From positions 558,001-622,000 of the forward strand of contig NZ_BKBA01000008.1 in NCBI RefSeq assembly GCF_007992835.1: 64,000 nt of DNA. Direction: 5' to 3'. The stretch comes from Knoellia locipacati (lineage in GTDB: Bacteria > Actinomycetota > Actinomycetes > Actinomycetales > Dermatophilaceae). Under the pieces are notes generated by a model. The model ran no database searches. It saw nothing but the letters and a program-made list of their open reading frames with translations, and was not told the DNA's origin. The position numbers and the translations under genes are program-made. This document shows positions 1 to 64,000 of this stretch, piece after piece; position 1 is the stretch's first letter, and the number at the start of each line of letters is the position of its first letter.

Positions 1-5
1 CGGGG

Positions 6-1502
6 TCAGACGGCGTTCTCCTCGCGGATGTCGGCGATCCACGCCTCGACGTCGGCGCTGCTGCGCGGCATCGCGGCCGAGAGGTTCTCGTTGCCGTCGG
101 CGGTGATGACGATGTCGTCCTCGATGCGCACGCCGATGCCGCGGAAGCGCTCGGGCACCTTGAGGTCGTCGGCCTTGAAGTACAGCCCGGGCTCGACGGT
201 GAGGACCATGCCCGGCGCGAGCTCGGCGTCCATGTACTCGGCGCGGGTGGCGAGGGCGCAGTCGTGGACGTCGAGGCCGAGGTGGTGCGAGGTGCCGTGG
301 ACCATCCAGCGGCGGTGGTACTGTCCGTGCTCGGTGTCGAGGGTGTCCTCGACCGAGACGCCCTCGGGCAGCAGGCCCCAGGCGTGCAGGTGCTCGGCGA
401 TGACGCGGATGGCGGCGGCGTGGATGTCCGAGAACTTCGCGCCCGGCTTGGCCGCGGCGATCCCGGCCTCCTGCGCGGCGTACACGGCGTCGTAGATCTC
501 GCGCTGCGCGTCGGTGAAGGTGCCGCTCACGGGGAGGGTGCGGGTGATGTCGGCGGTGAAGAGCGAGTCGACCTCGACACCGGCGTCGAGGAGGACGAGG
601 TCACCCTCGGCGACGTCACCGGTGTTCTTGATCCAGTGCAGGGTGTTGGCGTGGTCGCCGGACGCGGCGATCGAGTCGTAGCCGACGCCGTTGCCCTGGT
701 GGCGGGCGTGCAGGCCGAAGATCCCCTCGATCCAGCGCTCGCCGCGACCGAGCTCGGCGGCGGTCTCGAGCTCGGCGATGACCGCCTCGAAGCCGACGTG
801 CGTGGCTGCGACGGCCTCACGCATCTGCTCGATCTCGTACTCGTCCTTGGTGAGGCGCAGGACGGACAGGGCGTGCGCGAGAGCGTCGTCGTGCTCGGCG
901 AGCGACTCGCGCTCGGCGCCGTTCTCGACCCGCGACTCGTCGAGCGAGGCGGTGAGCTCGCGGTCGGCGTCGCGGACGACACGCACGGTGACTTGACCGG
1001 CGTCCTTGGCCACGGCCGCCTCGAACTCGTCGATGTGGCGGGCGGTGAGGCCGAGCTCGAGCTCGATGTCGGCCAGGCTGGGGCGGGCGCCGACCCAGAA
1101 CTCGCCGTAGCGGGCGTCGGCGAAGAAGTCGTCGCTGTCGCGCTCGCCGAGCGGGCGGAAGTAGAGGACGGCCTCGTGGCCGTCGTCGGTGGGCTCGAGG
1201 ACGAGGACGGCGTCGGGCTCGCGGTCCGCGCCCAGGCCCGTGAGGTGGGCGAACGCGGTGTGCGGGCGGAAGACGTAGTCGGTGTCGTTGCTGCGCACCT
1301 TGAGGCCACCGGCGGGCACGACGAGCCGGTCACCCGGGAAGGCGGCGCTGACGTCCTCGCGGCGCGTCGCGGCATACGGAGCCGCAGGGGACTGCCCGGT
1401 CGCCTGTGGGCGACGCTCGGCCCAGTCCTCACGGACGAAGCCGCGGAACTCCTCGGTCGTCGGACGCGCGCGGTTCTCTGCCTGCTTCTGCTCTTCGCTC
1501 AC
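6..1502 (-). CDS. pepP: Xaa-Pro aminopeptidase (M24B)
   Basis: A 498-residue cytosolic metallopeptidase that removes an N-terminal residue preceding proline. The first ~170 residues form the aminopeptidase-P N-terminal domain and the rest is the pita-bread fold. The dinuclear metal ligands are all visible: Asp in LLDAGVEVDS and in TADITRT, His in HGTSHHLGLDVHD, Glu in TVEPGLYF and Glu in VRIEDDIVIT, so it should be active. I chose GTG at 1502 because the protein from there (VSEEQKQAENR) matches family length; the open frame continues further upstream but only as a shadow of the divergent gene. The start lies 6 bp from the start of the DUF2332 gene on the other strand, so any promoter must lie inside that gene. 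Confidence 0.93.
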   Translation of the reverse strand: MSEEQKQAENRARPTTEEFRGFVREDWAERRPQATGQSPAAPYAATRREDVSAAFPGDRLVVPAGGLKVRSNDTDYVFRPHTAFAHLTGLGADREPDAVLVLEPTDDGHEAVLYFRPLGERDSDDFFADARYGEFWVGARPSLADIELELGLTARHIDEFEAAVAKDAGQVTVRVVRDADRELTASLDESRVENGAERESLAEHDDALAHALSVLRLTKDEYEIEQMREAVAATHVGFEAVIAELETAAELGRGERWIEGIFGLHARHQGNGVGYDSIAASGDHANTLHWIKNTGDVAEGDLVLLDAGVEVDSLFTADITRTLPVSGTFTDAQREIYDAVYAAQEAGIAAAKPGAKFSDIHAAAIRVIAEHLHAWGLLPEGVSVEDTLDTEHGQYHRRWMVHGTSHHLGLDVHDCALATRAEYMDAELAPGMVLTVEPGLYFKADDLKVPERFRGIGVRIEDDIVITADGNENLSAAMPRSSADVEAWIADIREENAV

Positions 1503-1508
1503 GGCTCT

Positions 1509-2555
1509 ATGGTGGCACGCGTGAGTGCGTACGACGGAGCCACCGTGGTCGAGCGGATGCGCAGCCACTGGGGCGGCAGCACCGACCACCTCTACGGCGT
1601 GCTCGTGCGTGAGCTCGCCGACGACTGGGACCGCGGCGGTGTCGTGCGCGAGATCCTGCGGGGGCGGGAGGATGCGCCGGCCGGCGACATGGTCCAGCTG
1701 CGGCTGCTCGCCGGCATCCACCGGATCGTGCTGCGTGGCGAGGCGCCCGGGCTGGCCTGCTTCTATCCCTCTGTGGGTGGAACTGCCGACCGGTATGCCG
1801 TGTGGCCGGCGTTGGAGCCTGTCCTGCGTGCGCACGTGGCCGAGCTGCGCGAGGGGCTGGACGTGGCGCCGCAGACCAACGAGGTCGGCCGGTCGGTCGC
1901 GCTGCTCGCCGGACTGTCGGAAGCGGTGCGACGGACCGGTCTGCACCGGGTGCGGCTCCTCGAGCCCGGGGCGTCGGCGGGGCTCAACCTGCTCGTCGAC
2001 CGGTTCCGGTTCGTCGGGGACGGGTGGACGGCCGGGCCGAGGGACGCGCACCTGGTGCTCGAGGGCTGCGAGGCGCCGGGGTTCACGCCCGTCGAGGTCG
2101 AGGTCGTCGAACGACGTGGGTGCGATCTCGACCCGTTCGACGCGACGACCGACGAGGGCGCGGCCCACCTCCGGTCCTTCATCTGGCCGCACATGCCCGA
2201 GCGCGACGGGCGTCTGGTGGCGGCGCTGGCGACCCTGCGCGAGACACCTGTGATGGTCGACCGGGCGGGTGCGGCCGGCTGGGTGCGGGCGCAGCTCGCC
2301 GAGCCGGCGCCCGAGGGGGTGCTCACGGTGGTGTGGCACTCGATCACCCGGCAGTACTGGCCGCCGCAGGAGTACGCCGCGATGCTCGATGCGATCGAGG
2401 AGGCCCGGGTGAGGATGCCGCTGGCGCGGGTGGCCCTGGAGGACCCGCACCCGCTGCCGACGACGAGCACGTGGCGGCCGCAGGTCGAGCTCGACGACGA
2501 GGTGCTCGGCTGGTGCACCCACCACGGCCCACCCCTCGAGCTGGCCCGCCGGTGA
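1509..2555 (+). CDS. DUF2332 family protein
   Basis: A 348-residue soluble protein of the actinobacterial/proteobacterial DUF2332 family, whose function is not established. Recognisable family blocks are QTNEVGRS, LLEPGASAGLNLLVDR (resembling a SAM-binding glycine loop), the acidic DLDPFD segment and FIWPHMPERD, and near the end VVWHSITRQYW. No signal peptide or membrane segment is seen. ATG 1509 is the first start; GTG 1521 (VSAYDG) is an equally good alternative and would leave 18 bp rather than 6 bp to the divergent aminopeptidase start. The stop codon lies inside the left arm of the inverted repeat that follows. Confidence 0.85.
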   Translation: MVARVSAYDGATVVERMRSHWGGSTDHLYGVLVRELADDWDRGGVVREILRGREDAPAGDMVQLRLLAGIHRIVLRGEAPGLACFYPSVGGTADRYAVWPALEPVLRAHVAELREGLDVAPQTNEVGRSVALLAGLSEAVRRTGLHRVRLLEPGASAGLNLLVDRFRFVGDGWTAGPRDAHLVLEGCEAPGFTPVEVEVVERRGCDLDPFDATTDEGAAHLRSFIWPHMPERDGRLVAALATLRETPVMVDRAGAAGWVRAQLAEPAPEGVLTVVWHSITRQYWPPQEYAAMLDAIEEARVRMPLARVALEDPHPLPTTSTWRPQVELDDEVLGWCTHHGPPLELARR

Positions 2556-2653: not shown

Positions 2654-4372
2654 TCAGAGGGCGGCGTCGGGGGCGAGCCGTCGGGCCTGGTCGGCGCTCG
2701 CGTCATCGGGCATCGTCTGGCTCGACATCTCGGCCTCGACCCGGCGGTGGTAGATGTCGATCTCCTCGGCGACCCGGGCGTCGTCCCAGCCGAGGATCGG
2801 CGCGGCGAGCGCTGCGGCGTGTGGAGCGGCGCTCAGCCCACGGTCCCGCGCCTCGATCGAGATGCGCGTCCTGCGGGTGAGGATGTCGGTGAGGTGCATC
2901 GCTCCCTCGGTCGCGGCGGCATACACGACCTCCGCCCTGAGGTGGGTCTCGCCGCCGGGCAGGAGCTCGCCGAGCTCGGGCTGGGCATTGATGATCGCGA
3001 TGATCTCCTTGGTGAGCGTGCCGTAGCGCTCGAGCAGCGTCTCGACGTGCTCCTGGTCGATCCCGGCCGACCGGGCGAGGATCTGCGGTCGCTCGCTCAG
3101 CCACTCCCAGCCGACGGCGCCGGCGAGGGGGACCTTGTCGGTCGAGGACGGCGCCACCTCGACGCCGAGGTCCTTGACGGCCTCGTCGACGGCGTCCTTG
3201 GCCATGATCCGGTAGGTCGTGTACTTGCCGCCGGCGATGAGCGTGAGCCCCGGAACCGGTGTCGCGACGACGTGCTCGCGCGAGAGCTTGGTCGTCTCGT
3301 CGGTCTCGTCGCCCGAGATCAGGGGGCGCAGGCCGGCATACACGCCGTCGATGTCGTCCCGGGTGAGCGGCGTGACGAGGACCGAGTTGACCGTGGCGAG
3401 GAGGTAGTCGATGTCGGCCGCGGTCGCCGCCGGGTGCGCCTTGTCGAGGGTCCAGTCGGTGTCGGTGGTGCCGATGATCCAGTGCTCGTCCCACGGGATG
3501 ATGAACAGGACCGACTTCTCGGTGCGCAGGATGACGCCGGTCTCCGAGGTGATGCGGTCGCGCGGCACGACGAGGTGGATGCCCTTGCTGGAGCGGACCT
3601 TGAGCGGGCCGTCCTCGCCGAGCATCTGCTGGATCTCGTCGGTCCACACGCCGGCGGCGGCGACGACCCGGCGGGCGCGGATGTCGAACTCCTCACCGGT
3701 GGCGTTGTCGCGAGCCCGGACGCCGACGACGCGCTCGCCGTCGTCGGAGCGCAGCATGCTCACGGCGGCGACGCGGTTGACGACGTGGGCGCCGTGCATG
3801 GCTGCGGTGCGGGCCAGCTCGAGCACGAAGCGCGCGTCGTCGACCTGCGCGTCGTGGTACTGGATCGCGCCCGTGAGCGCATCGGGTCGCAGGCTGGGCA
3901 TGAGGCGGAGCGCGGCCTTCTTGCCGAGGTGGCGGTGGCGGGGGAGGCCGGCGGTCTGGCGCACCCCGAAGGCGAGCCCGTCGTAGAGCGCGATGCCCGA
4001 CCCGACGTAGAAGCGCTCCCAGGCGGGCTTGCTCAGCGGGTACATGAACGGCACCGGCCGCACGAGGTGCGGCGCGATCGTCGTGAGGAGCAGCCGCCGC
4101 TCCTGGAGCGCCTCGTGGACGAGCCCGAAGTCGAGCATCTCGAGGTAGCGCAGGCCGCCGTGGATGAGCTTGCTCGAGCGCGAGCTCGTGCCGCTGGCGT
4201 AGTCGCGGGCCTCGATGAGACCGGTCGACAGGCCGCGGGTGACGGCGTCGAGCGCGACGCCGCAGCCGACGACGCCACCACCGACGACGAGCACGTCGAG
4301 CTCCTCGCCGGAGCGCAGCCGCTCGAGGGTGGATGTCCGTGCCGCAGGTGAGAGGGTCACAGAAATGAGCAT
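2654..4372 (-). CDS. glpD: Glycerol-3-phosphate dehydrogenase (FAD, aerobic)
   Basis: A 572-residue membrane-associated flavoenzyme oxidising sn-glycerol-3-phosphate to dihydroxyacetone phosphate and passing electrons to quinone. The N-terminal FAD site reads DVLVVGGGVVGCGVALDA (residues ~28-45), followed by the family block SGTSSRSSKLIHGGLRYLE; IIGTTDTDW and IAGGKYTTYR lie in the middle, and the last ~130 residues are the GlpD C-terminal domain. Start ATG 4372 has GGAGG 9 nt upstream; an internal GTG at 4360 is possible. glpK lies 0.9 kb away on the same strand, separated by an opposite-strand hydrolase gene, so the pair forms a glycerol catabolic locus without an adjacent glpF. A divergent gene starts 30 bp upstream. 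Confidence 0.95.
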   Translation of the reverse strand: MLISVTLSPAARTSTLERLRSGEELDVLVVGGGVVGCGVALDAVTRGLSTGLIEARDYASGTSSRSSKLIHGGLRYLEMLDFGLVHEALQERRLLLTTIAPHLVRPVPFMYPLSKPAWERFYVGSGIALYDGLAFGVRQTAGLPRHRHLGKKAALRLMPSLRPDALTGAIQYHDAQVDDARFVLELARTAAMHGAHVVNRVAAVSMLRSDDGERVVGVRARDNATGEEFDIRARRVVAAAGVWTDEIQQMLGEDGPLKVRSSKGIHLVVPRDRITSETGVILRTEKSVLFIIPWDEHWIIGTTDTDWTLDKAHPAATAADIDYLLATVNSVLVTPLTRDDIDGVYAGLRPLISGDETDETTKLSREHVVATPVPGLTLIAGGKYTTYRIMAKDAVDEAVKDLGVEVAPSSTDKVPLAGAVGWEWLSERPQILARSAGIDQEHVETLLERYGTLTKEIIAIINAQPELGELLPGGETHLRAEVVYAAATEGAMHLTDILTRRTRISIEARDRGLSAAPHAAALAAPILGWDDARVAEEIDIYHRRVEAEMSSQTMPDDASADQARRLAPDAAL

Positions 4373-5306: not shown

Positions 5307-6821
<1,515 letters not shown>

Positions 6822-7580: not shown

Positions 7581-7628
7581 CGGAAGTGGACGGCATACCC
7601 AAGGCAGTGGGTATGCCGTCCGCTTCCG
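7581..7628. terminator. bidirectional terminator built from paired GTATGCCG octamers
   Basis: A 21-bp stem with one mismatch and a 6-nt loop (7602-7607). The two arms are CGGCATAC and GTATGCCG with matching flanks extended to CGGAAG/CTTCCG. It lies between the convergent ends of the MaoC gene and the sigma-associated membrane protein gene. Confidence 0.75.
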
Positions 7629-9940: not shown

Positions 9941-10954
9941 CTACTTCACCGCTTCGGTATGCCGGGTGCCCGCCGCGTCGGTCCAGCTCACCGCGGTGAC
10001 GCTAGGTCCGGCGCCGGCGCCGGGTGCCGACGCCTCGGCGAATGCGACCTCCGCGCTGCCGAGTGAGCGGACGGTGACGTCGGTGGTGCGGGTGGCGTTG
10101 GCCCACTCGAGCCTCACGTCGCGCGCGCCCTCCGGCAGCAGCGTCACCGAGCTCCAGGACCACTCGCCGTCGTCGGGCTTCTGCCCGTAGCCCATCGTCG
10201 TGCTCTCACCGGTGGTGAGCGGACGCGTCGACCCACCGCTGCCGTCGGCCATGAAGACACCGATGGTGCTGGCGTCCTGCGCGACGAAGAACCGGTCGCC
10301 GTCGTTGGTCGGCACGCTCGGCAGGAGGGATCCGGTCGCCGTGCGCACCTCGTCGTCGGCGTTGGTCCAGATCGTGTCGACGTAGGAGTCGACCTCCTTG
10401 GGGTCGTCGAACTTCAGGGCGACGGCCTGGTACGCGGTCCCCGGCAGCGGCTGCTGGTCGGTCTCGATCCCGCCGTGCGTGCCGTCGCGCGTGATGGTGA
10501 GGAACGCCGTGGCGTCGGCGGGGGCCGTGCCGAGCATGACGCCCTCGGCGCCCGAGCCGGTGCCCAGGGAGACGACGGTGGCGTCTGCGCTCGACCCTGC
10601 GAGCTGCTGTCGTGACGTGCCGGAGCCCTTGTAGAACATGATGTTGGGCTGGTCAGCGGGGGCACCCGGGCGCACCTCGACGGACCAGTCGCCGTCGAAC
10701 AGGGCGGCGGACACGCGCCGACCGGCGTCGACGGAGGTCGAAGGTCCGGCTGGCAGGGCCTCCCCGCCGAGGCCGGAGCCAAGGGGGGTGAAGGCGATCG
10801 CGGCGGCGGCGACCGCGGCACCGGCGCCGAGCCCGGCCCGGCGCAGGTTGCGGCGGCGCAGGCGACGCCGACCGCCGGTGTGCACGGCGTTCTCGTCGAC
10901 CGAGAGCGCGGGCGACGGGGGAGCGGCGAGGAGCTCGAGGATCGGGTCAGACAT
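9941..10954 (-). CDS. Membrane-anchored protein encoded with second SigE-family sigma factor
   Basis: A 337-residue protein with the same plan as the 7642-8907 product: an N-terminus beginning MSDPILELLAAP, an Arg-rich block (RRRLRRRNLRR), a single hydrophobic helix at about residues 40-57, then a ~280-residue external domain of repeated beta-like segments. ATG 10954 overlaps the sigma stop as ATGTCTGA, exactly as in the other module. The external domain shows no close similarity to the first partner by eye. An anti-sigma or signal-input role is inferred only from coupling. The stop lies 3 bp from the convergent VOC stop, so there is no room for a terminator between them. Confidence 0.8.
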   Translation of the reverse strand: MSDPILELLAAPPSPALSVDENAVHTGGRRRLRRRNLRRAGLGAGAAVAAAAIAFTPLGSGLGGEALPAGPSTSVDAGRRVSAALFDGDWSVEVRPGAPADQPNIMFYKGSGTSRQQLAGSSADATVVSLGTGSGAEGVMLGTAPADATAFLTITRDGTHGGIETDQQPLPGTAYQAVALKFDDPKEVDSYVDTIWTNADDEVRTATGSLLPSVPTNDGDRFFVAQDASTIGVFMADGSGGSTRPLTTGESTTMGYGQKPDDGEWSWSSVTLLPEGARDVRLEWANATRTTDVTVRSLGSAEVAFAEASAPGAGAGPSVTAVSWTDAAGTRHTEAVK

Positions 10955-11666: not shown

Positions 11667-12508
11667 GTGAGGATCGACCTGCACACGCACTCGACCGCGA
11701 GCGACGGCACCCAGAGCCCGACCGAGCTCGTCGCCGAGGCCAGGGCCGTGCGGCTCGGCATGATCGCCCTCACCGACCACGACACGACCGCGGGCTGGGA
11801 GGAGGCCGTCGGGGCCGCCCTCCACCACGGTGTCCGGCTCGTGCGGGGCATCGAGATCTCGTGCAGCCGCACCCACCGCAGCATCCACCTGCTCGGCTAC
11901 CTGCCGAACCCGGACGACCCGCGGCTCGTCATCGAGCTGGCCCGGGCCCGCGACAGCCGGGTGAGCCGGATGGACCGGATGATCGAGCGGATGGCCGCGG
12001 ACGGCATACCGGTGTCGGTCGAGGAGGTACGTGCCCAGCTGGCGCCCGGCGCGACGCTCGGCCGGCCGCACCTCGCCGATGCTCTCGTGTCCGTCGGGGT
12101 CGTGGCCGACCGCGACGAGGCGTTCCGGGACCTGCTCCACGACCGCGGCAGGTACTACGTCGGCCACTACGCCCCCGATCCCGTCGACGCCATCGAGCTG
12201 GTGCGCAGCGCCGGGGGAGTGCCGGTCCTCGCACACCCGTTCGCGATGCGCGGCGCGACCGTCTCGGACGACCTGGTGGCCGAGCTGGCGGCGGCGGGCC
12301 TGGCCGGGATCGAGGCCCACCACCGCGACCACGAGCCGGCCGACGTCGAGCGCGCCGTCCGCCTGGCGCAGCGCCACGACCTCGTCGTCACGGGGAGCAG
12401 CGACTACCACGGGACCGGCAAGCTCAACCGTCTCGGAGAGCGCACCACGGAGCCGCGCGAGTGGTCACGTATCGTCGAGCAGTCCTCAGGCGTGAAAGTG
12501 GTGGAACC

Positions 12509-12512: not shown

Positions 12513-13399
<887 letters not shown>

Positions 13400-13450: not shown

Positions 13451-14335
13451 GTGACGCAGGTGGGAGCCGGGCGACCGGTGCAGGACGAGTTCGCGGGCAT
13501 GCCGCCGAAGCTGTATGCCGCGAGCCCCTCACGCCTGCTCGCCCTCGTCGACTGCCCGCGCCGCTACCGGATGCAGTACCTCGACCGGCCACGACCCGAG
13601 CAGCGCCCGCAGCGCGCCCACACGTCGTTCGGGCTCGCGGTGCACAACGCCCTGCGTGACTGGTGGGACCTGCCCCGTGACCGGCGCACCGCGTCCGCGG
13701 GGCGTGAGCTCGTGCGCGAGTCGTGGATCGACGTCGGCTTCCGCGACCCCGAGCAGTCCGCGCAGTGGCGCCGGCGCGCGCAGGAGCACGTCACGGCATA
13801 CCTCGCGGGCGTCGACCCCGACGACCACCCCACCGGCATCGAGCGCACCGTGTCGTTCGTCAGCGGGGCGCTGCGGGTCACCGGGCGCATCGACCGGCTC
13901 GACGACCGTGACGGCGAGCTCGTCGTCGTCGACTACAAGACGAGCCAGAAGCCGCTCGGTGAGACCGATGCGCGCACGTCACTGCCCATGGCCCTGTATG
14001 CCGCGGCCGTCTGGAAGATGTTCCGTCGCCCCTGCCTGCGGGTCGAGCTCCACCACGTGACCTCCGGCGAGGTCGTAGAGCACACCCACACGCCGGAGTC
14101 GCTGACCCGCAAGGTCGACGAGGCCAAGTCGATCGCCCGCGACGCGCAGCGCGCCGACGCGGACTACGCCGAGCGGGGTGTCGAGTCGACCCTCTTCCCG
14201 CCGGTCGTCGGGCCGTTGTGCACGTGGTGCGACTTCCGTGCCCACTGCCCCGAGGGCCAGACGGCAGGCCCCGAGAAGTCCGGGTGGGCCGCGCTCGAGC
14301 CCACCGAGGTCCCGCGGGCCGTCGAGGTCGGCTGA
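13451..14335 (+). CDS. RecB-family PD-(D/E)XK nuclease with Fe-S cysteines
   Basis: A 294-residue single-domain nuclease of the RecB C-terminal/Cas4-like class. The catalytic core reads GRIDRLDDRDGELVVVDYKT (about residues 141-160). Four cysteines in the iron-sulfur arrangement of AddB/Cas4 proteins are present: one near the N-terminus in VDCPRRYRMQYLD and three near the end in LCTWCDFRAHC. No helicase domain is fused and no cas genes are nearby. Standalone homologues are common in actinobacteria, with role unproven; DNA end processing is the likely activity. Confidence 0.87.
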   Translation: MTQVGAGRPVQDEFAGMPPKLYAASPSRLLALVDCPRRYRMQYLDRPRPEQRPQRAHTSFGLAVHNALRDWWDLPRDRRTASAGRELVRESWIDVGFRDPEQSAQWRRRAQEHVTAYLAGVDPDDHPTGIERTVSFVSGALRVTGRIDRLDDRDGELVVVDYKTSQKPLGETDARTSLPMALYAAAVWKMFRRPCLRVELHHVTSGEVVEHTHTPESLTRKVDEAKSIARDAQRADADYAERGVESTLFPPVVGPLCTWCDFRAHCPEGQTAGPEKSGWAALEPTEVPRAVEVG

Positions 14336-16223: not shown

Positions 16224-16256
16224 CCGGCATACCCACTCTTCCCGCTAGGACACCAC

Positions 16257-18320: not shown

Positions 18321-18374
18321 TCGGGCGGGGCAACAGCGGCCGTATGCCGGCCGGTCACCCTCGCGGGGTGGGTC

Positions 18375-20000: not shown

Positions 20001-20184
20001 GGGAACTCTCTGATCGGCGGCATCACGCGCGCAATGCTCGTCGCCGCTGTGGCGGGCCGATCGGAGGTCTTCGGGCGGGCGCTCACGTGAGGCCCTCACA
20101 CTGATGTTCGTCGTGCCGACCGGGCACCGTGGACCTTCCCAGCCTACCGTGCGTATGCCGTCCGCCCGGCCACCGGCGGATCGC

Positions 20185-31674: not shown

Positions 31675-31702
31675 CCGTTCACCGTATGCCGTGAGCGCAC
31701 CC

Positions 31703-36310: not shown

Positions 36311-36402
36311 GCCTCGGTGCCGGTATGCCGTTCTCTGACCACGTCCTGAGACGCGTCCCTGTCGCGGTGGACCGGTAGGGGCCGCCGTGGTTCGCTCTTT
36401 CC

Positions 36403-38606: not shown

Positions 38607-38637
38607 GACGGCATACCGACGACGCCCGTATGCCGTC
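38607..38637. terminator. inverted octamer pair between convergent genes
   Basis: GACGGCATAC (38607-38616) and GTATGCCGTC (38628-38637) form a perfect 10-bp stem with an 11-nt loop, between the NUDIX and ABC1-kinase stops. Confidence 0.65.
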
Positions 38638-46158: not shown

Positions 46159-49100
46159 GTGAGCCGGCCAGAGTGGTTCGACGGTATCGACCCCGACGAC
46201 GCAGACAAGCAGTCCGGGGGGTCCGGTCCGCGTGACCCGGGCGGGCCCGCGCGCGGCTCCGGACCGGGGGGCGGAGCGGGTTCGGGTGGTCGCATCCGAC
46301 GGCCCGGCCGTCCCGGTGGCGCGGGGGTGCCCCCCAAGAGGGGACCCCTCGGCACCACCCTCGCCATCCTCGCCGGGGTCGCGATCCTCGCGCTCATGGC
46401 GGCCGGCGTCCTCACCGACGTCTGGTGGTACGACTCGGTCGGTTTCCGCGACGTCTTCCTCACCCAGCTCGGCACCCGGGTGCTGCTCTTCGTCGCCGCC
46501 TTCGTCATCACCGCGGGAGCGGTCGCGGCGAGCCTCGTGGTCGCCTACCGCGCCCGTCCGCGGCGCATCCTGCCCTCGCCGTCGGCGCAGGTGCTCGACC
46601 AGTACCGCCAGGTCCTCGACCCGCTGCGGCGGCTCGCGACGATCGTCGTGCCGTCGGTGCTGGGACTCCTCGCCGGTGCTGCCGCGATGGGTGCCTGGCG
46701 CACGTTCCTGTTGTGGCGCAACGCCGTTCCCTTCGGGACCAAGGACCCCCAGTTCGGCCTCGACGTGGGCTTCTTCGTCTTCACGCTCCCGTGGCTGCGC
46801 TTCCTCGTCAGCTTCTTCACGGTCGTCCTGCTGCTCGCCCTGCTCGCCGCGGCGTTCACCCACTACGTCTACGGCGGCCTCCAGCTGCCGGGCCGCGGTG
46901 AGACCACACGTGCAGCCTTCATCCAGGTCGCGACCCTGGCCTCGCTGCTCGCCCTGGTGCGTGCGGCCGCCTACTGGCTCGACCGCTACAGCCTCACGAC
47001 GAGCGAGTCCAAGCTCATCACCGGCATCACCTACACCGACGCCAACGCGGTGCTGCCGATCAAGGCGATCCTCGCGGTGGCGACGGTGATGTGCGCCGGG
47101 TTCTTCATCGCCTCGATCTGGACGCGCAGCTGGCGTCTGCCGCTCATCGGCGTCGGGCTGCTCACGGTGCTCGCGGTCGTCGCCGGCGGCCTCTACCCGG
47201 CTGCGGTCCAGTCGCTCAAGGTCCGCCCGTCCGAGAAGTCGCTCGAGGCCCAGTACATCCAGCGCAACATCGACGCGACGCGTGCCGCCTTCGGCATCGA
47301 CGGCATCAAGAAGACGCCGTACTCCGCGACGACCGACGCCGAGCCGGGCCAGCTGCGCGAGGACGCCGAGACCATCCCGGGCATCCGCCTCGTGGACCCC
47401 AACGTCGTGTCGCCGACCTTCCGCCAGTTCGAGGGTCTGCGCCAGTACTACGCCTTCCCCGACATCCTCGACGTCGACCGCTACGCCATCGACGGCAAGA
47501 AGAGCGACTCCGTCGTCGCCGTGCGCGAGCTCAACCTCAGCGGTGTCCCCGAGAACCAGCGCAACTGGCTCAACGACCACACCGTCTACACCCACGGCTT
47601 CGGCTTCATCGGCGCCTACGGCAACAAGCGCACCACTGAGGGCGACCCGCAGTTCTTCTCGAGCGGGTTCTCCACCAAGGGCCCGATGGGCGTCGACTAC
47701 GAGCCGCGCATCTACTTCGGCGAGGAGTCACCGCAGTACTCCATCGTCGGCGCCCCCGAGGGGGCCAAGCCGCGCGAGTTCGACTTCCCCGACGACCAGG
47801 GCGAGGGCGGCCAGGCCAACAACACCTACGAGGGCAGTGGCGGCGTCGCCATCGGCTCCTTCGGCCGCAAGCTCGCGTATGCCGTGAAGTACCGCGAGCC
47901 GAAGTTCCTCCTCTCGGACGCGGTCAACAGCGACTCGCGCCTGCTCGACCACCGCCTTCCCCGCGAGCGCGTCGAGCGGGTCGCCCCGTGGCTCACGGTC
48001 GACGGCAACGCCTACCCCGCCGTCGTCGACGGCCGGGTCAAGTGGATCGTCGACGCCTACACGACGACGGCCCGCTACCCCAACAGCCGCCTCACCGACC
48101 TCGCCGAGGCGACCTCCGACTCGGTGAGCGAGCGCTCGAGCGTCGTCGTCGCCGGCGCCGGGCGGGTCAACTACATCCGCAACTCGGTCAAGGCCACCGT
48201 CGACGCCTACGACGGCCAGGTCAAGCTCTACGGCTGGGACACCAAGGACCCCATCCTCAAGGCGTGGAGCAAGGCCTTCCCCGGAGCGGTCTCGCCGATG
48301 TCCGAGATGTCGGCACAGCTCATGAGCCACGTCCGCTACCCGCAGGACCTCTTCAAGGTCCAGCGCCAGCTGCTCTCGAGCTACCACGTCACCGACGCCA
48401 ACTCGTTCTACGGCGGTGGCGACTTCTGGCGGGTGCCCAAGGACCCGACGCACGCGACCCAGGACCAGCCGGTCTACTACCAGTCGCTCGCGATGCCGGA
48501 CCAGACCACGCCGGCCTTCTCGCTGACCACGACGTTCATCCCGTCGGGCTCGGGCCGAGAGATCCTGCGTGGGTTCCTCGCCGTCGACTCCGACGCGGGT
48601 GGCACGGCCGGCAAGCAGGCGGACACCTACGGCAAGATGCGGCTGCTCGAGCTGCCACGCAACTCGGCGGTCGACGGGCCCGGCCAGGTGCAGAACCAGA
48701 TCGAGGTGAGCACGGCTCGCTCGCAGAGCCCGAGCGAGCCGCTCAACCTCAGCCAGTTCATCGCGCAGAACCGTCAGTCGGGCAAGCAGCTGACCTACGG
48801 CAACCTGCTCACGCTCCCCGTGGGTGAGGGCCTGCTCTACGTCCAGCCAATGTACGTCCAGGCCTCCCGCGAGGGCGGCTCGTTCCCGCAGAACAAGGCG
48901 ACGGTCGCCGTGTTCGGCAAGCGGATCGCCTGGGGCGAGACGCTCGACCAGGCGCTCGACGGCCTGTTCGGTGGCAACTCCGGCGCGAGTGCCGGCGACA
49001 GCGGCACCGACTCGGGTGGCACGCCGGCCCCGGGTGGTCAGACGCCACCCGACCAGACGCCGACCGCCCAGCTGGCCGAGGTCATCAAGGACATCGAGGC

Positions 49101-49287
49101 GGCCAACGCGGCCGGTCAGGCGGCACTCAAGAAGGGTGACTTCGCGGCATACGGCGTGGCGCAGAAGGACCTCCAGGACGCGATCGCGCGTGCGGCGGCA
49201 CTCAGCCCGCAGCTCGCGACCCCCGCTCCCGGTGCGTCGGCCAGCCCGTCGGCCACCCCGTCGCCGAGCCCCTCGGCGTCGCCCTGA
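46159..49287 (+). CDS. UPF0182 family membrane protein
   Basis: A 1042-residue integral membrane protein. About seven transmembrane helices occupy residues ~70-350, then a ~600-residue external domain begins near VQSLKVRPSEKSLEAQYIQRNIDATR, the family signature, followed by a Gly/Thr/Pro-rich and Ala/Ser/Pro tail. Equivalent to Rv3193c. Function unknown; the large extracellular part is conserved in actinobacteria and cyanobacteria. GTG 46159 is taken as start (MSRPEWFDGIDPDD). Confidence 0.93.
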   Translation: MSRPEWFDGIDPDDADKQSGGSGPRDPGGPARGSGPGGGAGSGGRIRRPGRPGGAGVPPKRGPLGTTLAILAGVAILALMAAGVLTDVWWYDSVGFRDVFLTQLGTRVLLFVAAFVITAGAVAASLVVAYRARPRRILPSPSAQVLDQYRQVLDPLRRLATIVVPSVLGLLAGAAAMGAWRTFLLWRNAVPFGTKDPQFGLDVGFFVFTLPWLRFLVSFFTVVLLLALLAAAFTHYVYGGLQLPGRGETTRAAFIQVATLASLLALVRAAAYWLDRYSLTTSESKLITGITYTDANAVLPIKAILAVATVMCAGFFIASIWTRSWRLPLIGVGLLTVLAVVAGGLYPAAVQSLKVRPSEKSLEAQYIQRNIDATRAAFGIDGIKKTPYSATTDAEPGQLREDAETIPGIRLVDPNVVSPTFRQFEGLRQYYAFPDILDVDRYAIDGKKSDSVVAVRELNLSGVPENQRNWLNDHTVYTHGFGFIGAYGNKRTTEGDPQFFSSGFSTKGPMGVDYEPRIYFGEESPQYSIVGAPEGAKPREFDFPDDQGEGGQANNTYEGSGGVAIGSFGRKLAYAVKYREPKFLLSDAVNSDSRLLDHRLPRERVERVAPWLTVDGNAYPAVVDGRVKWIVDAYTTTARYPNSRLTDLAEATSDSVSERSSVVVAGAGRVNYIRNSVKATVDAYDGQVKLYGWDTKDPILKAWSKAFPGAVSPMSEMSAQLMSHVRYPQDLFKVQRQLLSSYHVTDANSFYGGGDFWRVPKDPTHATQDQPVYYQSLAMPDQTTPAFSLTTTFIPSGSGREILRGFLAVDSDAGGTAGKQADTYGKMRLLELPRNSAVDGPGQVQNQIEVSTARSQSPSEPLNLSQFIAQNRQSGKQLTYGNLLTLPVGEGLLYVQPMYVQASREGGSFPQNKATVAVFGKRIAWGETLDQALDGLFGGNSGASAGDSGTDSGGTPAPGGQTPPDQTPTAQLAEVIKDIEAANAAGQAALKKGDFAAYGVAQKDLQDAIARAAALSPQLATPAPGASASPSATPSPSPSASP

Positions 49288-49326: not shown

Positions 49327-50382
49327 TCACCACTGGTGGGCGCGGCGGTTCTCCATTGCGAGGAGAGCGATGGCGACGACCGCTCCGATGACCGTCTCGA
49401 CGCCCCGGTCGAGGACGAGGTCCGGCGCCGACTGCGAGGCCCCGAGCTGACCCATGAGCAGCGCCATCGGGGTGATGAACAGCAGGGCCAGCCCGTAGTT
49501 GCGACCGACGAGGAGCTCGGTGACGATCTGGAGCGCGACGACGACGAGCACGAGCGGCACCGGGTCGAGCCCGAGCAGGAGCAGCGGGATGCTCGTGAGG
49601 AGCCCGAGGATCGTGCCGGCGATGCGGTGACCGGCGCGCAGCGCTTGGTGGGCCCGGCCACGCACGCTCAGGGGTGCTGCCGCCGCAACCATCGCCCACC
49701 AGGAGTGGCCGAGACCGGCGCTCGTGGCGACGGCTCCCGCGACACCCACCGCGACCATGTAGCGCAGGGGGTCCGGGCTCCACGGTGAGACCAGGGCGGC
49801 GTGGGGCTGGCGCGCGATGCGGGCCACGACGGCCCCGACGTTCCCCACGACGAGCGCGAAGGCGGCGCTCGCCGCACTCACGGCCAGGGCCACGGGGACG
49901 TCGGACCAGGACGCGTGCGTCGCGGCCACGGTCCCGAACGCGAAGATCAGGAACAGTGGGCCCGGCGGGTGCCAGTCGAGCACCGTGGACACCATCGACC
50001 CGGCCCCGGCCACGGCGACGGCCACCAGGACGCGCGTCCACGGCCCGGCACCCGAGGCCGAGACCGCCGCGCCCAGGACGACGCACGTCACCAGCGCCAC
50101 GCCGGCGCTCGCCTGCATGACGGCGCGGGGGACGTGGACCCGGTTGCGGCCGTACAACGAGGTGAAGGCGCCGAACGCGGCATACACCGCCCACGGCGTC
50201 CGGTCGAGTGCGATCACGGTGAGCAGGGGGACCGCGACGCTGAGACCAGCTCGGATTGCGACCCGGTGCGAGCCGGCCGGGACGGGGTTGAGACGCACGA
50301 GGTCCCGGACCCCGAAGTCGAGGGTGGGCGGTCGCGACGTCGGGGAGGTCGCCCTCCTGTCACCGGTCCACATGCGAGCCAT
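49327..50382 (-). CDS. FUSC/aromatic acid exporter-like membrane protein
   Basis: A 351-residue membrane protein with two six-helix repeats: VAIRAGLSVAVPLLTVIALD ... WAVYAAFGAFTSLYGRN and, in the second half, YMVAVGVAGAVATSAGLGHSWWAMVAAAAPLS ... GHRIAGTILGLL. This duplicated motif with an Arg-Gly turn is the FUSC/YccS exporter plan. Substrate unknown. ATG 50382 and ATG 50373 (GACGAT 7 nt upstream) are both possible. Confidence 0.85.
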   Translation of the reverse strand: MARMWTGDRRATSPTSRPPTLDFGVRDLVRLNPVPAGSHRVAIRAGLSVAVPLLTVIALDRTPWAVYAAFGAFTSLYGRNRVHVPRAVMQASAGVALVTCVVLGAAVSASGAGPWTRVLVAVAVAGAGSMVSTVLDWHPPGPLFLIFAFGTVAATHASWSDVPVALAVSAASAAFALVVGNVGAVVARIARQPHAALVSPWSPDPLRYMVAVGVAGAVATSAGLGHSWWAMVAAAAPLSVRGRAHQALRAGHRIAGTILGLLTSIPLLLLGLDPVPLVLVVVALQIVTELLVGRNYGLALLFITPMALLMGQLGASQSAPDLVLDRGVETVIGAVVAIALLAMENRRAHQW

Positions 50383-52122: not shown

Positions 52123-52189
52123 GCCCACGGCATACACCGGGGGTCGTCGACGACCCGCGAAGCCGCGGGGCGGGCACACCCTCGGCACG

Positions 52190-53488: not shown

Positions 53489-54843
53489 GCACCACGACCG
53501 TGCCCCGTCCGGAGGTCGCGGCCCCCGAGCCGTGGGCCTTCCCGCTGCCACAGGAGTCGGTGACGGACAACGGCATACGACTTCTCACGTATGCCGTCCC
53601 CGGCCAGTACGTCGTGTCCCTGCGGCTCGTCGTCCCGCTGTCGCTCACCGACGAGCCGGCCGACCGCGAGGGCGTCGCGGCCATGACCGCACGCCTGCTC
53701 GACGAGGGCACGGCGGAGCACTCGAGCGAGGAGTTCGCCGAGCTCATGGAACGCACCGGAATGGTGCTGGGCGCCGCGGTGACCGACGGCGCCCTGAGCG
53801 TGGACGTCGACGTGCCGCAGCGGTTCCTGCCCCAGGCGCTGGACCTGCTGCGCCAGACGCTGGCCGAGCCGGCGTTCCCGCAGGACGAGGTACGCCGCAT
53901 CCTGCGCAGCCGCCTCGCGGAGATCGAGCAGGAACGGGCCTCGGCACCGCACCGCGCCGCCCGCGAGCTCACCGCCACCCTGTGGGCCCCGACCGAGCGC
54001 GCCTCCCGCCCGGCCGCCGGGACGCCCGCGACCATCTCCGCGATGGGCCGTGACGACGTCGTCGAGTTCCACCGCAGGCACATCGGCCCGCGCGGCGCCA
54101 CCCTCGTCGTCGCCGGTGACCTCGACGGCGTCGACGTCGCCGACGTGGTCGCGACCGGGCTCGGTGGCTGGACCAACCCCGACCACGTGCCGGCCACGCC
54201 GGCCCGACCGCCCGTTCCCGCCGGGGGAGGGGCCCGCGTGGTCCTCGTCGACCGGCCGGGATCGGTGCAGAGCGAGCTGTCGGTCGCGGTGCCCGGTCCG
54301 GACCGGTCGGTCGCGACCGGCTGGGCGCCCTACCCCGTCCTCAGCTTCATGGTCGGGGGGTCGCCGAGCGCCCGTGTCGACGCCGTCCTGCGCGAGGACA
54401 AGGGCTACACCTACGGCATCCGCGCCGCCTTCCGGCCGCGTGCCCGGGGCGGGTCCTTCGTCACCGCGGGCTCGGTGCGTGCCGACGCCACCGTCGATGC
54501 ACTCAGGCTGCTCGTCGAGATCCTCGGTACGGCGCGAGAAGGGTTCTCGCAGGCCGAGATCCGCAGTGGGGTGGACTACGTCGTGCAGACGGCGCCGGGT
54601 CGTTATGCGACGGCGGACGCCGTCGCCGACGAGGCGTCGGCCCTGGCCATCGAGGGCCTCCCGCTCGACTTCCAGACGACGACGCTCGCCGCGATGCGCG
54701 AGCTCGACGACGCGGCCCTCACCACGGCATACACGGACGTCGTCACGGGGGAGTGGGTCGTGGTCGTCGTGGGCGACGCCGCGAGCCTGCGCGAGGGCAT
54801 CGAGGGGCTGGGCCTCGGACCGGTGACGGTGGTCCCGGCCTGA
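53485..54843 (+). CDS. M16 peptidase, non-catalytic partner
   Basis: A 452-residue M16 homologue in which the zinc motif position reads GVAAMTARLLDEGT, with no HxxEH, so it cannot bind zinc. It keeps the substrate-binding R/Y pair (SARVDAVLREDKGYTYGIRAA). The pair resembles the Sphingomonas/Bacillus M16B heterodimers, where partner residues clamp the substrate. A pair of facing GTATGCCG octamers lies near its start. Confidence 0.92.
   Translation: MSTTTVPRPEVAAPEPWAFPLPQESVTDNGIRLLTYAVPGQYVVSLRLVVPLSLTDEPADREGVAAMTARLLDEGTAEHSSEEFAELMERTGMVLGAAVTDGALSVDVDVPQRFLPQALDLLRQTLAEPAFPQDEVRRILRSRLAEIEQERASAPHRAARELTATLWAPTERASRPAAGTPATISAMGRDDVVEFHRRHIGPRGATLVVAGDLDGVDVADVVATGLGGWTNPDHVPATPARPPVPAGGGARVVLVDRPGSVQSELSVAVPGPDRSVATGWAPYPVLSFMVGGSPSARVDAVLREDKGYTYGIRAAFRPRARGGSFVTAGSVRADATVDALRLLVEILGTAREGFSQAEIRSGVDYVVQTAPGRYATADAVADEASALAIEGLPLDFQTTTLAAMRELDDAALTTAYTDVVTGEWVVVVVGDAASLREGIEGLGLGPVTVVPA
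53570..53597. repeat. inverted octamer pair inside M16 gene
   Basis: ACGGCATACG (53570-53579) and CGTATGCCGT (53588-53597) form a perfect 10-bp stem with an 8-nt loop. It uses the rare codons ATA (Ile) and TAT (Tyr) in NGIRLLTYAV. Confidence 0.85.
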
Positions 54844-55769: not shown

Positions 55770-55848
55770 GGGCCACCCGACCGGGACCGGCTCTCACTTG
55801 ATGTCCGTTCACTTTCCCTGGAACGGATCGACACGTAGGAGGACATCC

Positions 55849-57507: not shown

Positions 57508-57547
57508 CCCCAGCGTGTCGGGTGAGCACCTGACCCGACATCAGCAG

Positions 57548-59631: not shown

Positions 59632-59647
59632 GCAGGAGGAGCAACCA

Positions 59648-60679
59648 GTGACCACCACCACCAAGTCAGTGGCGCCCGCTTCGGACTACAAGCCCGACGA
59701 CAGCGGCCGCCTCCTCGAGGTCGACAACCTCTTCGTCGAGTTCCACACCGCCGAAGGCGTGGCCAAGGCGATCAACGGTGTCTCGTTCGACCTGCACCAG
59801 GGAGAGACGCTCGCGATCCTCGGCGAGTCCGGTTCCGGCAAGTCCGTGACCGCTCAGGCGATCATGGGCATCCTCGACATGCCGCCGGCCGTCATCCCGT
59901 CGGGTGCCATCCGCTACTGCGGCCAGGACCTGCTGACCATGCCGGAGGACCAGCGCCGCAGGGCACGCGGCCCGGAGATCTCGATGATCTTCCAGGACGC
60001 GCTCAGCTCGCTCAACCCGACGTTCCCCGTCGGCTGGCAGATCGGCGAGATGTTCCGGCAGCACCGGGGCATGAACAAGTCCGACGCCTATGCCCAGGCC
60101 GTCCGCCTCATGGAGCGCGTCGCGATCCCCGGAGCCAAGGACCGGGTCAAGAACTACCCGCACCAGTTCTCCGGCGGCATGCGCCAGCGCATCATGATCG
60201 CGATGGCGATCGCGCTCGACCCGGCGGTCCTCATCGCCGACGAGCCGACCACCGCCCTCGACGTCACCGTCCAGGCGCAGATCATGGCCCTGCTCGCTGA
60301 GCTCCAGGAGGAGCGTCAGATGGGCCTCATCCTCATCACCCACGACCTCGGTGTCGTGGCCGACGTCGCGGACCGCGCCTCGGTCATGTATGCCGGTCGC
60401 ATCGTCGCGCAGGCGGGGATCGAGGACCTCTACGCCCGCCCGGCGCACCCCTACACCCGCGGTCTGCTCGAGTCGATCCCCCGACTCGACCAGAAGGGCC
60501 AGACGCTCGCCGCCATCGGTGGCCTGCCGCCGAACCTCACCAGGATCCCGCCGGGCTGCGCGTTCAACCCGCGCTGCCGCATGGCCCAGGACATCTGCCG
60601 CACCGACGTCCCGGAGCTGCGTCACGTGGCCAACCAGGACTCCGCCTGCCACTTCGCCGAGGAGGTCCTCAATGGCTGA
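59648..60679 (+). CDS. dppD: Peptide ABC transporter ATPase
   Basis: A 343-residue ATPase. Walker [16 protein letters not shown]-loop [11 protein letters not shown], signature FSGGMRQR, Walker [15 protein letters not shown]-loop ITHDLG. The C-terminal oligopeptide/dipeptide domain carries four Cys (CAFNPRC...CRTD...CHF), which in this family may bind an Fe-S cluster. GTG 59648 has GGAGGAG upstream. Confidence 0.94.
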
Positions 60680-61964: not shown

Positions 61965-61979
61965 CGCCGTGGTGAGGAG

Positions 61980-63011
61980 TCAGTCGCCCCTCTGCGGCGT
62001 CCGCGTGCGCAGCAGCCGTCGGAGGGACTCCAGCCGTGAGGCTCCTGCGGGGCCGGCATGGCCACCGGCCACCCAGGCGTCGAGGGCGCACTCCTCCTCG
62101 TCGTGGGTGCAGCCGCGGGGGCACTCGTCGGTGCCGGCCTCGAGGTCGGGGAAGTGGACGATGATCCGCTCGGGGTCGACGTGCGCCAGCCCGAAGGACC
62201 GGATGCCGGGAGTGTCGATGACCCACCCGCCGCCGTCGGGGAGCCGCAGCGCGATCGCGGACGTGCTCGTATGCCGTCCACGCCCGGTCACGTCGTTGAC
62301 CACACCCGTCGCGCGGTAGGCGCCGGGCACCAGGGCGTTGACGAGCGTCGACTTGCCGACGCCGGAGTGCCCGACGAGCACGCTGACCCGACCGCGCAGG
62401 GCATCACGCAGGGCCTCGAGGCCGTCGGTGCCGTCGTCGCCCGAGGTGGCGGTGACCACCGATGGCACCTCGAGCGGGGCGTAGTTCTCGAGGAACGGCT
62501 CGGGGTCGGCCAGGTCGGCCTTGGTGAGCGCGAGCAGCGGCGACATGCCGGCGTCGTAGGCCGCGACGAGGCAGCGGTCGATGAGGCGCGGGCGCGGCTC
62601 CGGGTTGGCCAGGGCCGAGACGACCACGAGCTGGTCGGCGTTGGAGACGATGACCCGCTCGACGGGGTCGGTGTCGTCGGCGGTGCGCCGGAGCAGGGTG
62701 CGGCGGGGCTCGACCCGGACGATCCGGGCGAGGGCGTCGGGGCTGCCGGACACGTCTCCCACGAGGGCCACGTCGTCGCCGACGACGATGCCCTTGCGGC
62801 CGAGCTCCCTGGCGCGCATGGCGATGACGACCCGCTCGTCCGCGAGACCGTCGCCCACGAGCACGGTGTAGCGGCCACGGTCGACGGTCGTGACCTTGGC
62901 GGGCACGGCGTCGAGGTGCGCGGGCCGGTCCTTGGAGCGGGGACGGCTGCCCCGCTTGTTGGGCCTGACCTTGGCGTCGGACTCGTCGTAGTCGCTCGTC
63001 GACCGGGCCAT
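61980..63011 (-). CDS. rsgA: Ribosome small-subunit-dependent GTPase A
   Basis: A 343-residue circularly permuted GTPase that helps mature the 30S subunit. The N-terminal OB fold (PAKVTTVDRGRYTVLVGDG) is followed by G4 (LTKADL), then G1 (GHSGVGKSTLVNAL) and G3 (DTPGIRSFG), the permuted order. The C-terminal zinc domain is CPRGCTHDEEEC. A basic N-terminal tail (VRPNKRGSRPRSKDR) is present. ATG 63011 overlaps the aroA stop by 1 nt (TGATG), so it is coupled to aroA. Confidence 0.95.
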   Translation of the reverse strand: MARSTSDYDESDAKVRPNKRGSRPRSKDRPAHLDAVPAKVTTVDRGRYTVLVGDGLADERVVIAMRARELGRKGIVVGDDVALVGDVSGSPDALARIVRVEPRRTLLRRTADDTDPVERVIVSNADQLVVVSALANPEPRPRLIDRCLVAAYDAGMSPLLALTKADLADPEPFLENYAPLEVPSVVTATSGDDGTDGLEALRDALRGRVSVLVGHSGVGKSTLVNALVPGAYRATGVVNDVTGRGRHTSTSAIALRLPDGGGWVIDTPGIRSFGLAHVDPERIIVHFPDLEAGTDECPRGCTHDEEECALDAWVAGGHAGPAGASRLESLRRLLRTRTPQRGD

Positions 63012-64000
63012 CAGGCGGTGCGTCCCTGCGCCGAGGCGTCGCCCAGCATCCCGGACCACAGGTCCGTGAACGTGGGCAGCGTCTTGGCGACGGTGCCGGG
63101 GTCCTCGAGGACGAGACCTGGGACGGCGAGGCCGAGGACGGCGCCCGCCATGACCATCCGGTGGTCGGCGTAGGTCGCGAAGCGGGTGGGGGAGAGGCGT
63201 CGCGGCACGATGTGCAGCCCGTCCTGCGTCTCGGTGACCTCGGCGCCCATGGCACCGAGCTCGCGGGCGAGGGCCGCCAGCCGGTCGGTCTCGTGTCCCC
63301 GGATGTGGGCGACCCCGCGGATGACCGTCGGGCCGTCGGCCAGCGCCGCGAGGGCGGCGACGACGGGCGTGAGCTCGCTCGCGTCGTGGAGGTCGAGGTC
63401 GACACCGGTGAACCCGTCGACGGCGCTCACGGTGAGCCCGTCGCGCGCGAGCCTGACGTCGGCGCCCATCTCGTCGAGGATGTCGCGGATGTCGTCACCG
63501 GCCTGCGTGGTGTGCTGCGGCCAGCCCGGGACGTGCACCCGGCCACGGGTGACGAGGGCTGCCGCGAGGAAGGGTGCGGCGTTGGACAGGTCCGGCTCGA
63601 CCTGGACGTCCAGGGGGTTGAGCGGTCCCGGCTCGACCCGCCAGACGTCGGGCTCGGTGTCGTCGACGTCGGCCCCGACGTCGCGCAGCGCCTCGACGGT
63701 CATCTCGATGTGCGGCTGGCTGGGCACGGGCGCGCCCTCGTGGCGGATCGTCACACCCTGCTCGTAGTGCGCGCCCGAGAGGAGCAGCGCCGAGATGAAC
63801 TGCGACGAGGCCGAGGCGTCGAGGGTGACGTCACCGCCTCGGACCGACCCCGTCCCGCGGACGACGAAGGGGAGGGTCCCCCTCCCGTCGTCGGCCACGT
63901 CGACGCCGAGCGCGCGCAGCGCCTCGAGGGCCGGACCCATCGGCCGGGTGCGGGCGTGCGGGTCGCCGTCGAAGCGCACCCCACCGTCGGCGAGGGCGGC
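63011..64000 (-). CDS. aroA: 3-phosphoshikimate 1-carboxyvinyltransferase (5' end outside window)
   Basis: The C-terminal 329 residues of EPSP synthase, the shikimate-pathway enzyme making EPSP. The visible part starts inside the gene ([23 protein letters not shown]) and includes [12 protein letters not shown], the Pro-Trp-Pro-rich [12 protein letters not shown] segment and [15 protein letters not shown] with the catalytic region intact. It is open at the window edge, so only the end is certain. Confidence 0.95.

Follow-up and report, generated by a model that had tools for sequence, protein, structure and literature searches.

The DNA analysed here, hereafter the window, is a 64-kb stretch of the Knoellia locipacati genome (contig NZ_BKBA01000008.1, positions 558,001 to 622,000), which comprises 3,587,375 bases in 19 contigs. 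The subject of this report is the octamer GTATGCCG, which lies inside the genes of this actinobacterium and, more densely, between them. The window contains 41 copies. An earlier note on this DNA had arrived at about 41 by eye, which is the exact number. Its near-equality of strands also holds, although the split is 20 copies on the plus strand and 21 on the minus strand and not 21 and 20. Most of the positions it listed are correct; four are off by one (7612 for 7611, 12003 for 12002, 38610 for 38609 and 42229 for 42228). The single copies of GTATGCCG in the window are as follows.

1370..1377, minus strand, exact copy
1793..1800, plus strand, exact copy
2917..2924, minus strand, exact copy
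3334..3341, minus strand, exact copy
5471..5478, minus strand, exact copy
6138..6145, plus strand, exact copy
9957..9964, plus strand, exact copy
12002..12009, minus strand, exact copy
12801..12808, minus strand, exact copy
13513..13520, plus strand, exact copy
13794..13801, minus strand, exact copy
13996..14003, plus strand, exact copy
16225..16232, minus strand, exact copy
18090..18097, minus strand, exact copy
18342..18349, plus strand, exact copy
20153..20160, plus strand, exact copy
20232..20239, minus strand, exact copy
22567..22574, plus strand, exact copy
23627..23634, minus strand, exact copy
27338..27345, plus strand, exact copy
30157..30164, minus strand, exact copy
31684..31691, plus strand, exact copy
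31975..31982, minus strand, exact copy
33160..33167, plus strand, exact copy
36323..36330, plus strand, exact copy
42228..42235, plus strand, exact copy
44464..44471, plus strand, exact copy
44637..44644, minus strand, exact copy
47877..47884, plus strand, exact copy
49145..49152, minus strand, exact copy
50178..50185, minus strand, exact copy
52128..52135, minus strand, exact copy
54725..54732, minus strand, exact copy
60388..60395, plus strand, exact copy
62269..62276, plus strand, exact copy

The other copies form inverted pairs.

7591..7618 (7591-7598 minus, 7611-7618 plus), inverted pair with a predicted terminator-like hairpin (-28.8 kcal/mol), between predicted convergent genes at 7024-7563 (plus) and 7642-8907 (minus)
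38609..38635 (38609-38616 minus, 38628-38635 plus), inverted pair, terminator-like by prediction (-16.6 kcal/mol), in the 39-base gap between convergent predicted genes for a NUDIX protein (38180-38602, plus) and an ABC1 kinase-like protein (38642-39976, minus)
53571..53596 (53571-53578 minus, 53589-53596 plus), inverted pair within the predicted gene for an M16 peptidase-like protein (53485-54843)

In the window, the longest gap free of the motif, 54733-60387 (5.7 kb, GC content 0.67), covers most of an oligopeptide ABC transporter operon.

The genome-wide excess of GTATGCCG is confirmed. For the window, dinucleotide shuffling predicts 0.88 copies (none of 100 shuffles reached 41) and a third-order Markov model predicts 2.11, which places the excess at about 19- to 47-fold and agrees with the 20-fold excess over about two copies claimed earlier. 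When the octamers of the window are ranked by z-score, GTATGCCG is second to its own one-base-shifted overlap, ACGGCATA. The genome contains 2535 copies, 1266 on one strand and 1269 on the other, compared to 99 (49 + 50) for the reversed word that served as the whole-genome control. This corresponds to about one copy per 1.4 kb, or one per 2.8 kb on each strand. The Markov and codon-based null models cover the window and the main sample, which consists of the window and 19 further stretches (441,205 bases) and contains 318 copies. A Markov model trained on this sample with the copies masked predicts 1.39, and the Markov test thus leaves the excess standing at both scales. The base that follows GTATGCCG in the window is T in 23 of 41 copies, and nine copies continue with TCC, as the earlier note had estimated. 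T occupies position 9 in 161 of 317 sample copies, and bias beyond position 9 is weak.

The constraint acts on DNA. With gene boundaries from a simple in-house gene caller, not a standard one, 235 copies of the main sample are fully coding (0.60/kb), 77 are fully intergenic (1.66/kb) and 6 span a boundary. Intergenic density is 2.04/kb in tandem gaps, 1.87/kb in convergent gaps and 1.27/kb in divergent gaps. Shuffling the codons of each gene leaves 18.2 (standard deviation (sd) 4.1) in place of the 235 coding copies, and synonymous resampling leaves 8.45 (sd 2.7). The excess therefore persists through the codon-shuffle test, and it is not limited to one protein motif: all six reading frames are used, as the earlier claim of varied frames implied, the commonest being read as Tyr-Ala (108) and Ala-Tyr (79). 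The word also forces rare codons, as had been suspected, since 24 of the 28 ATA codons and 108 of the 205 TAT codons in the sample lie inside it. The most codon-biased quintile of genes carries the fewest copies, at 0.28/kb compared to 0.55-0.79/kb in the other quintiles.

Closely adjacent copies are inverted. All 16 adjacent pairs less than 40 bases apart in the main sample are in opposite orientation, eight in each arrangement. With the extra stretch of an enlarged sample (the window and 20 stretches, each 17-20 kb long, which together make up 461 kb, or about 13%, of the 3.59-Mb genome), opposite pairs number 16 against 4.8 expected and same-strand pairs 0 against 4.3. Among 19 opposite pairs less than 46 bases apart, 14 are intergenic (3 convergent, 8 tandem and 3 divergent), 4 are intragenic and 1 is at an edge. 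By a reading of the pair table, 9 of the 14 intergenic pairs sit no more than 30 bases downstream of a stop codon. For the 19 pairs the calculated fold energies lie between -16 and -44 kcal/mol; several of the stems are longer than the word. Judged by hairpin formation and position, these pairs have an anatomy of the termination type. Among viral contigs matching a GTATGCCG hairpin (at least 80 loci), none of the matches listed is motif-rich and 74 of 80 hold fewer than 4 copies, a result that is uninformative.

The sites are conserved. Of 474 sites aligned across eight comEC loci of the Knoellia type, 363 are exact (77%; these are ordered pairs and not independent), compared to 23.8% of control octamers. 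A one-mismatch state is found at 24 aligned sites (5.1%), versus 30.3% for controls.

The spacing of GTATGCCG depends on strand. Same-strand pairs separated by 40-1000 bases number 38, where 100.7 (sd 9.6) are expected and none of 1000 simulations is as low; the deficit fades near 1.5 kb. Opposite-strand pairs over the same range match expectation in both arrangements (convergent, 54 vs 55.5; divergent, 57 vs 55.1). Neighbouring copies separated by 300 bases or more switch orientation with a frequency of 0.668, above all 2000 label shuffles (mean 0.525, sd 0.032). At 40-1500 bases, opposite pairs outnumber same-strand pairs when both sites are in one gene (57 vs 23), when they are in two genes (63 vs 30), when the two genes have the same direction (39 vs 13) and when at least one site is intergenic (53 vs 20). 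Strand counts per stretch are more equal than binomial (0.29, 20 stretches), and the balance holds where nearly all genes share a direction (stretches L041, L050 and L051). An apparent one-strand run on contig C2 was discarded as a listing artefact; L050 and L051, which lie there, show strand counts of 7/7 and 7/8. The same-strand shortage recurs in named Knoellia loci (6 vs 27.1) and in named loci of other genera (36 vs 63.5), and divergent pairs are in excess in the latter (53 vs 33.9). A small pooled set shows 5 same-strand pairs against 10.9 (p 0.02). Reading of the signal seems to be strand-specific, because a same-strand neighbour would make a new copy redundant and an opposite-strand neighbour would not. 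To a duplex-binding receptor blind to orientation, both kinds of neighbour should be redundant.

The distribution of GTATGCCG is family-restricted and patchy. By ComEC identity, the genome groups with Knoellia and Janibacter sp. HTCC2649 (74-82%; K. koreensis, 59%). Named loci of Knoellia, Pedococcus, Phycicoccus and Humibacillus carry 5.4-21.5 copies per 20 kb, that of Leekyejoonella 4.5 and that of Nostocoides sp. Soil756 none. In a survey of 71 genomes from 52 genera of the family, Dermatophilaceae, 40 genomes (29 genera) hold 939-4724 copies and 31 hold 7-293. The comparison with relatives that the earlier note had proposed thus reveals an abundant word that stops at the family: 46 genomes from other families of the same order hold 2-167 copies, the highest of them with 184 of the reversed word. 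A sample of 296 genomes of the phylum includes three members of the family, with 1251-2535 copies; the others hold at most 386 (in a 7.5-Mb genome with 176 reversed).

Some motif-poor genera contain alternative words at about 0.3-1 per kb. These candidate dialects were sought in 20-kb stretches from 20 motif-poor genomes, with further sequence added for some. GGATGCCG, a one-base variant of GTATGCCG, occurs 3816 times in G024 and 3949 times in G033 (253-1548 in the other 68 genomes). In G033 it is present 27 times in 11.3 kb of intergenic DNA (reversed word, 1) and 67 times in genes against 12.2 by synonymous resampling, and it shows the same-strand shortage (42 vs 76.6). The unrelated word CGAAGGGG occurs 3180 times in G044 and 2201 times in G045 (34-386 in the other 115). 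In G044, intergenic copies number 17 in 6.1 kb (reversed, 0), copies in genes 27 against 6.5 by synonymous resampling, and same-strand pairs 62 against 85.4. Pairs of CGAAGGGG closer than 40 bases are enriched in opposite orientation (15 vs 3.7 expected; same orientation, 5 vs 3.5), and 12 of 17 inverted hairpin pairs are intergenic. Another one-base variant, GTATGCGG, occurs 1204 times in G027 (5-459 in the other 69), with 18 copies in genes against 2.1 and 4 in 6.7 kb of intergenic DNA. A second unrelated word, GGAGNCGGT, occurs 3842 times in G014 and 1102 times in G063, which belong to one genus (66-993 in the other 115); it exceeds codon usage (34 vs 7.9) and shows neither close pairs nor a spacing effect in 56 kb.

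GTACGCCG, perhaps also a one-base variant, is doubtful as a dialect. It occurs 2216 times in G030 and 1359 times in G031 (39-900 in the other 68). In G030, 49 copies in genes compare with 13.6, but only 5 are found in 26.8 kb between genes, and the spacing effect and hairpin pairs are both absent. The case is somewhat better in G047 and G055, where intergenic DNA is enriched (9 in 8.4 kb and 3 in 3.5 kb) without a spacing effect. Because TAT to TAC and GCA to GCG both yield GTACGCCG, it could be a synonymous fossil of GTATGCCG.

In a single-gene, midpoint-rooted tree built from 45 ComEC rows, the two genomes with GGATGCCG group as sisters, adjoin Humibacillus and are nested in the GTATGCCG part, which also contains the GTATGCGG and CGAAGGGG genomes. 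A motif-less Nostocoides (G009) is sister to Knoellia. Word labels require 12 changes on this tree, compared to 21.6 when shuffled. Candidate words in G009, G016 and G018 were rejected, as they reach at most about twice the codon expectation with slight intergenic enrichment (in G018, 14 copies in 15.8 kb vs 4 reversed). Samples of 60 kb each from G009, G016, G018, G010, G017, G021, G022 and G048 revealed no comparable word.

Several further repeats were observed in these surveys. G090, from another family (f19), holds GGATGCCG 774 + 774 times (reversed, 97 + 87), which could be a further such word. About 53 copies of GTATGCGG in another family (G088:C1:28082-31265), at steps of mostly 61 bases, resemble an array of tandem repeats or of clustered regularly interspaced short palindromic repeats (CRISPR). 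Eight-base runs of G or C number 48 against 6.0 in 60 kb of G044 (L142, L174 and L175). In 100 kb of G030 (L139 and L183-L186), CAGTTCGAC (33 vs 2.7) and ACGGTCACG (27 vs 2.6) are possibly a local repeat or another word. GGGTCAGT occurs 14 times against 0.7 expected in 22 kb of Pedococcus bigeumensis (L065).

DNA that carries a DNA uptake sequence (DUS) or an uptake signal sequence (USS) is taken up, or transforms, better than other DNA, which is the defining feature of these words. The anatomical resemblance of GTATGCCG to them is confirmed. DUS of Neisseriaceae are likewise short, non-palindromic words on both strands that are found within genes and commonly between them, form inverted pairs at terminators and differ as dialects between genera (PMC3630211). 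USS of Pasteurellaceae resemble GTATGCCG in density, in relatively even spacing, in the lack of a chromosomal orientation bias and in inverted pairs of both arrangements that serve as terminators (PMC7811141, PMC1939737). The earlier comparison with Neisseria and Haemophilus thus stands for density, strand equality, intergenic enrichment, inverted hairpins, even spacing, conservation and dialects. It does not extend to the strand-resolved spacing, and the competence genes are shared with motif-poor relatives.

The genome encodes ComEA (SLBB plus helix-hairpin-helix) and ComEC, together with a tad locus for RcpC, a TadZ-like ATPase, a T2SSE ATPase, two T2SSF proteins, TadE and a TadG-like protein. 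Micrococcus luteus offers a parallel: it contains comEA, comEC and two tad loci, and its transformation requires the tad loci (PMC4322843). The terms 'uptake sequence' and 'sequence-specific' are absent from the main text of that paper. With a probability of about 0.58, GTATGCCG is a self-recognition word, similar to DUS, that is spread by biased transformation. Competent monoderm cells with ComEA, ComEC and a Tad/Flp pilus would prefer word-bearing strands at uptake or retention, and homologous recombination of these strands would spread and restore the word by molecular drive. The result would be an evenly spaced set of about one copy per 2.8 kb on each strand. Copies would be tolerated where the protein permits (Tyr-Ala, Ala-Tyr, Gly-Ile and Met-Pro) and are densest between genes, and some inverted pairs may have been recruited into terminator-like hairpins. 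Biased uptake combined with recombination drive would account for a word that is abundant, evenly spaced, restored at its sites and preferred between genes, and whose dialects shift. The strand-resolved spacing calls for an added step, in which the word decides or marks the strand that is imported or recombined. Either a receptor would orient the bound duplex so that the motif strand passes ComEC, or the word would be recognised on the single strand that has been imported. A more specific proposal is tentative and falls somewhat short of even odds: that GTATGCCG is a strand-resolved, family-wide word whose even arrays on each strand are read over about 1.5 kb of DNA that is single-stranded or oriented, and that in sister genera it has been exchanged, both through one-base changes and for unrelated words.

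A number of results weigh against biased transformation as the cause. The competence genes do not track the word: of 117 genomes, motif-bearing and motif-poor alike, 111 yielded ComEC and 116 TadE (all but G014), and ComEA was detected at 19 of the 20 loci that are motif-poor or have a dialect word (all but G056). Loss of competence genes is consequently not supported as the cause of motif loss, and the presence of com and tad genes in motif-poor relatives permits the uptake hypothesis but does not single it out. ComEC was not found in three motif-bearing genomes (G036, G040 and G041), which are fragmented and 58-95% complete. The tad locus itself lies in the longest motif-free gap of the 461-kb sample (L215:9171-20000; G000:C2, about 229.2-240.1 kb), a gap of at least 10.8 kb that is open at the contig end and may mean that the locus was acquired recently or is often replaced. 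None of the 71 family genomes contains PilN, which makes a minor-pilin reader of the type IVa pilus kind, like ComP, unlikely. The analysis yielded no candidate for the receptor, the Flp major pilin not having been looked for.

The pattern of copies also includes features not expected of a classical uptake word. H. influenzae reportedly takes up DNA independently of motif orientation (PMC1939737), which makes strand-resolved spacing unexpected. The contrast between strands is weaker when the two sites lie in neighbouring genes that point in opposite directions (24 opposite vs 17 same), and no significant spacing effect is seen in G067 (48 vs 53.5), G003 (13 vs 17.4), G014 (24 vs 25.0) or G045 (6 vs 8.6); G063 provides only 5 sites. 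Mismatched forms are reported to be over-represented for known uptake sequences (PMC1939737). One-mismatch forms of GTATGCCG show only a slight excess in the sample (249 vs 188.7 under the masked Markov model; training without masking inflated the expectation to 282.6, the motif itself being the cause) and none in genes (212 vs 274.3, sd 14.0, after synonymous resampling). Little or no halo of near-matches indicates that sites are mostly kept whole or lost. GTATGCCG differs from DUS in its strand-resolved spacing, its small halo, its host with one membrane and no PilN, and the unrelated words of some sister genera. Unlike USS, it shows hardly any enrichment of near-matches, and redundancy seems to exist only between copies on the same strand.

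The main rival to biased transformation is a Chi-like recombination signal. Chi sites, where known, favour the leading strand, and in E. coli they are less dense than one per 1.4 kb. A travelling helicase-nuclease, not RecBCD but perhaps AdnAB, would read GTATGCCG on one strand and switch from degradation to recombination, and each direction of approach would need its own evenly spaced set. This would explain equally well the strand-resolved spacing with equal convergent and divergent pairs in the K. locipacati genome, and it would fit a sharp octamer and the strong conservation of sites. RecC is absent from 9 of 9 genus genomes, which makes RecBCD-Chi itself unlikely for the genus (AddAB and AdnAB were not searched for); by tally, RecC is found in 6 of 29 motif-bearing genera and 12 of 23 others, a difference that may be phylogenetic. 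However, GTATGCCG lacks a leading-strand bias, as judged from gene direction and local strand counts with the origin unmapped, and its density of one per 1.4 kb exceeds that of E. coli Chi. The unrelated words of sister genera would also demand a complete change of enzyme specificity. A Chi-like role is therefore considered unlikely.

A word could also accumulate as the recognition site of an orphan DNA methyltransferase, or of some other system of restriction or epigenetic marking, in the way that HIP1 has accumulated in cyanobacteria, where a very abundant octamer also marks one clade (PMC4390886). A single sharp octamer with little halo would suit such an origin, and replacement of words at the genus level would fit an exchange of specificity genes. 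HIP1 is palindromic, in contrast to GTATGCCG, which is not self-complementary and forms separate arrays on the two strands. Given that same-strand avoidance over 1.5 kb and inverted hairpin pairs are not obviously produced by methylation, this origin is improbable. Improbable, too, is a binding word for an intracellular protein of chromosome organisation, replication or segregation. Even spacing in the sampled stretches is consistent with it, but avoidance restricted to the same strand is hard to obtain from a duplex-binding compaction protein. The lack of strand polarity argues against a word resembling primase sites or KOPS (FtsK-orienting polar sequences), and the nucleoid or packaging signal that the earlier note had offered as its alternative is unlikely in its polar form for the same reason. 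That GTATGCCG spread because inverted pairs terminate transcription is highly improbable: hairpin pairs near gene ends, as at 7.59 and 38.61 kb, and the intergenic enrichment would follow, but 235 of 318 copies are intragenic and only 16 adjacent pairs are closer than 40 bases. An artefact of composition, codon usage or dispersed repeats has a negligible probability, since nothing beyond the preference for Tyr-Ala and Ala-Tyr frames suggests it, codon shuffling, synonymous resampling, Markov models and reversed controls fail to explain the excess, and flank bias beyond position 9 is weak.

Finally, the results bear on self-recognition of DNA in bacteria. The literature covered describes genome-wide uptake words for two Gram-negative families. 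No description of such a word in Actinobacteria was found in the open-access papers searched, a scope that leaves preprints and most subscription journals outside; the earlier note, too, knew of no described equivalent in actinobacteria. If the interpretation given here is correct, GTATGCCG would represent a self-recognition code that differs from DUS and USS in what is read, a strand rather than a duplex, and in how completely words are swapped. The strand-resolved spacing would also provide a physical clue, to the strand imported or read and to the length concerned, of a kind rarely obtained from genome statistics. The dialects and the motif-less sister genera constitute a natural experiment for finding the reader. 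If GTATGCCG is an uptake word, Knoellia, Pedococcus, Phycicoccus, Humibacillus and their relatives should be naturally competent, and family-wide words in actinobacteria would show that sequence-specific self-recognition has arisen again in cells that lack an outer membrane.

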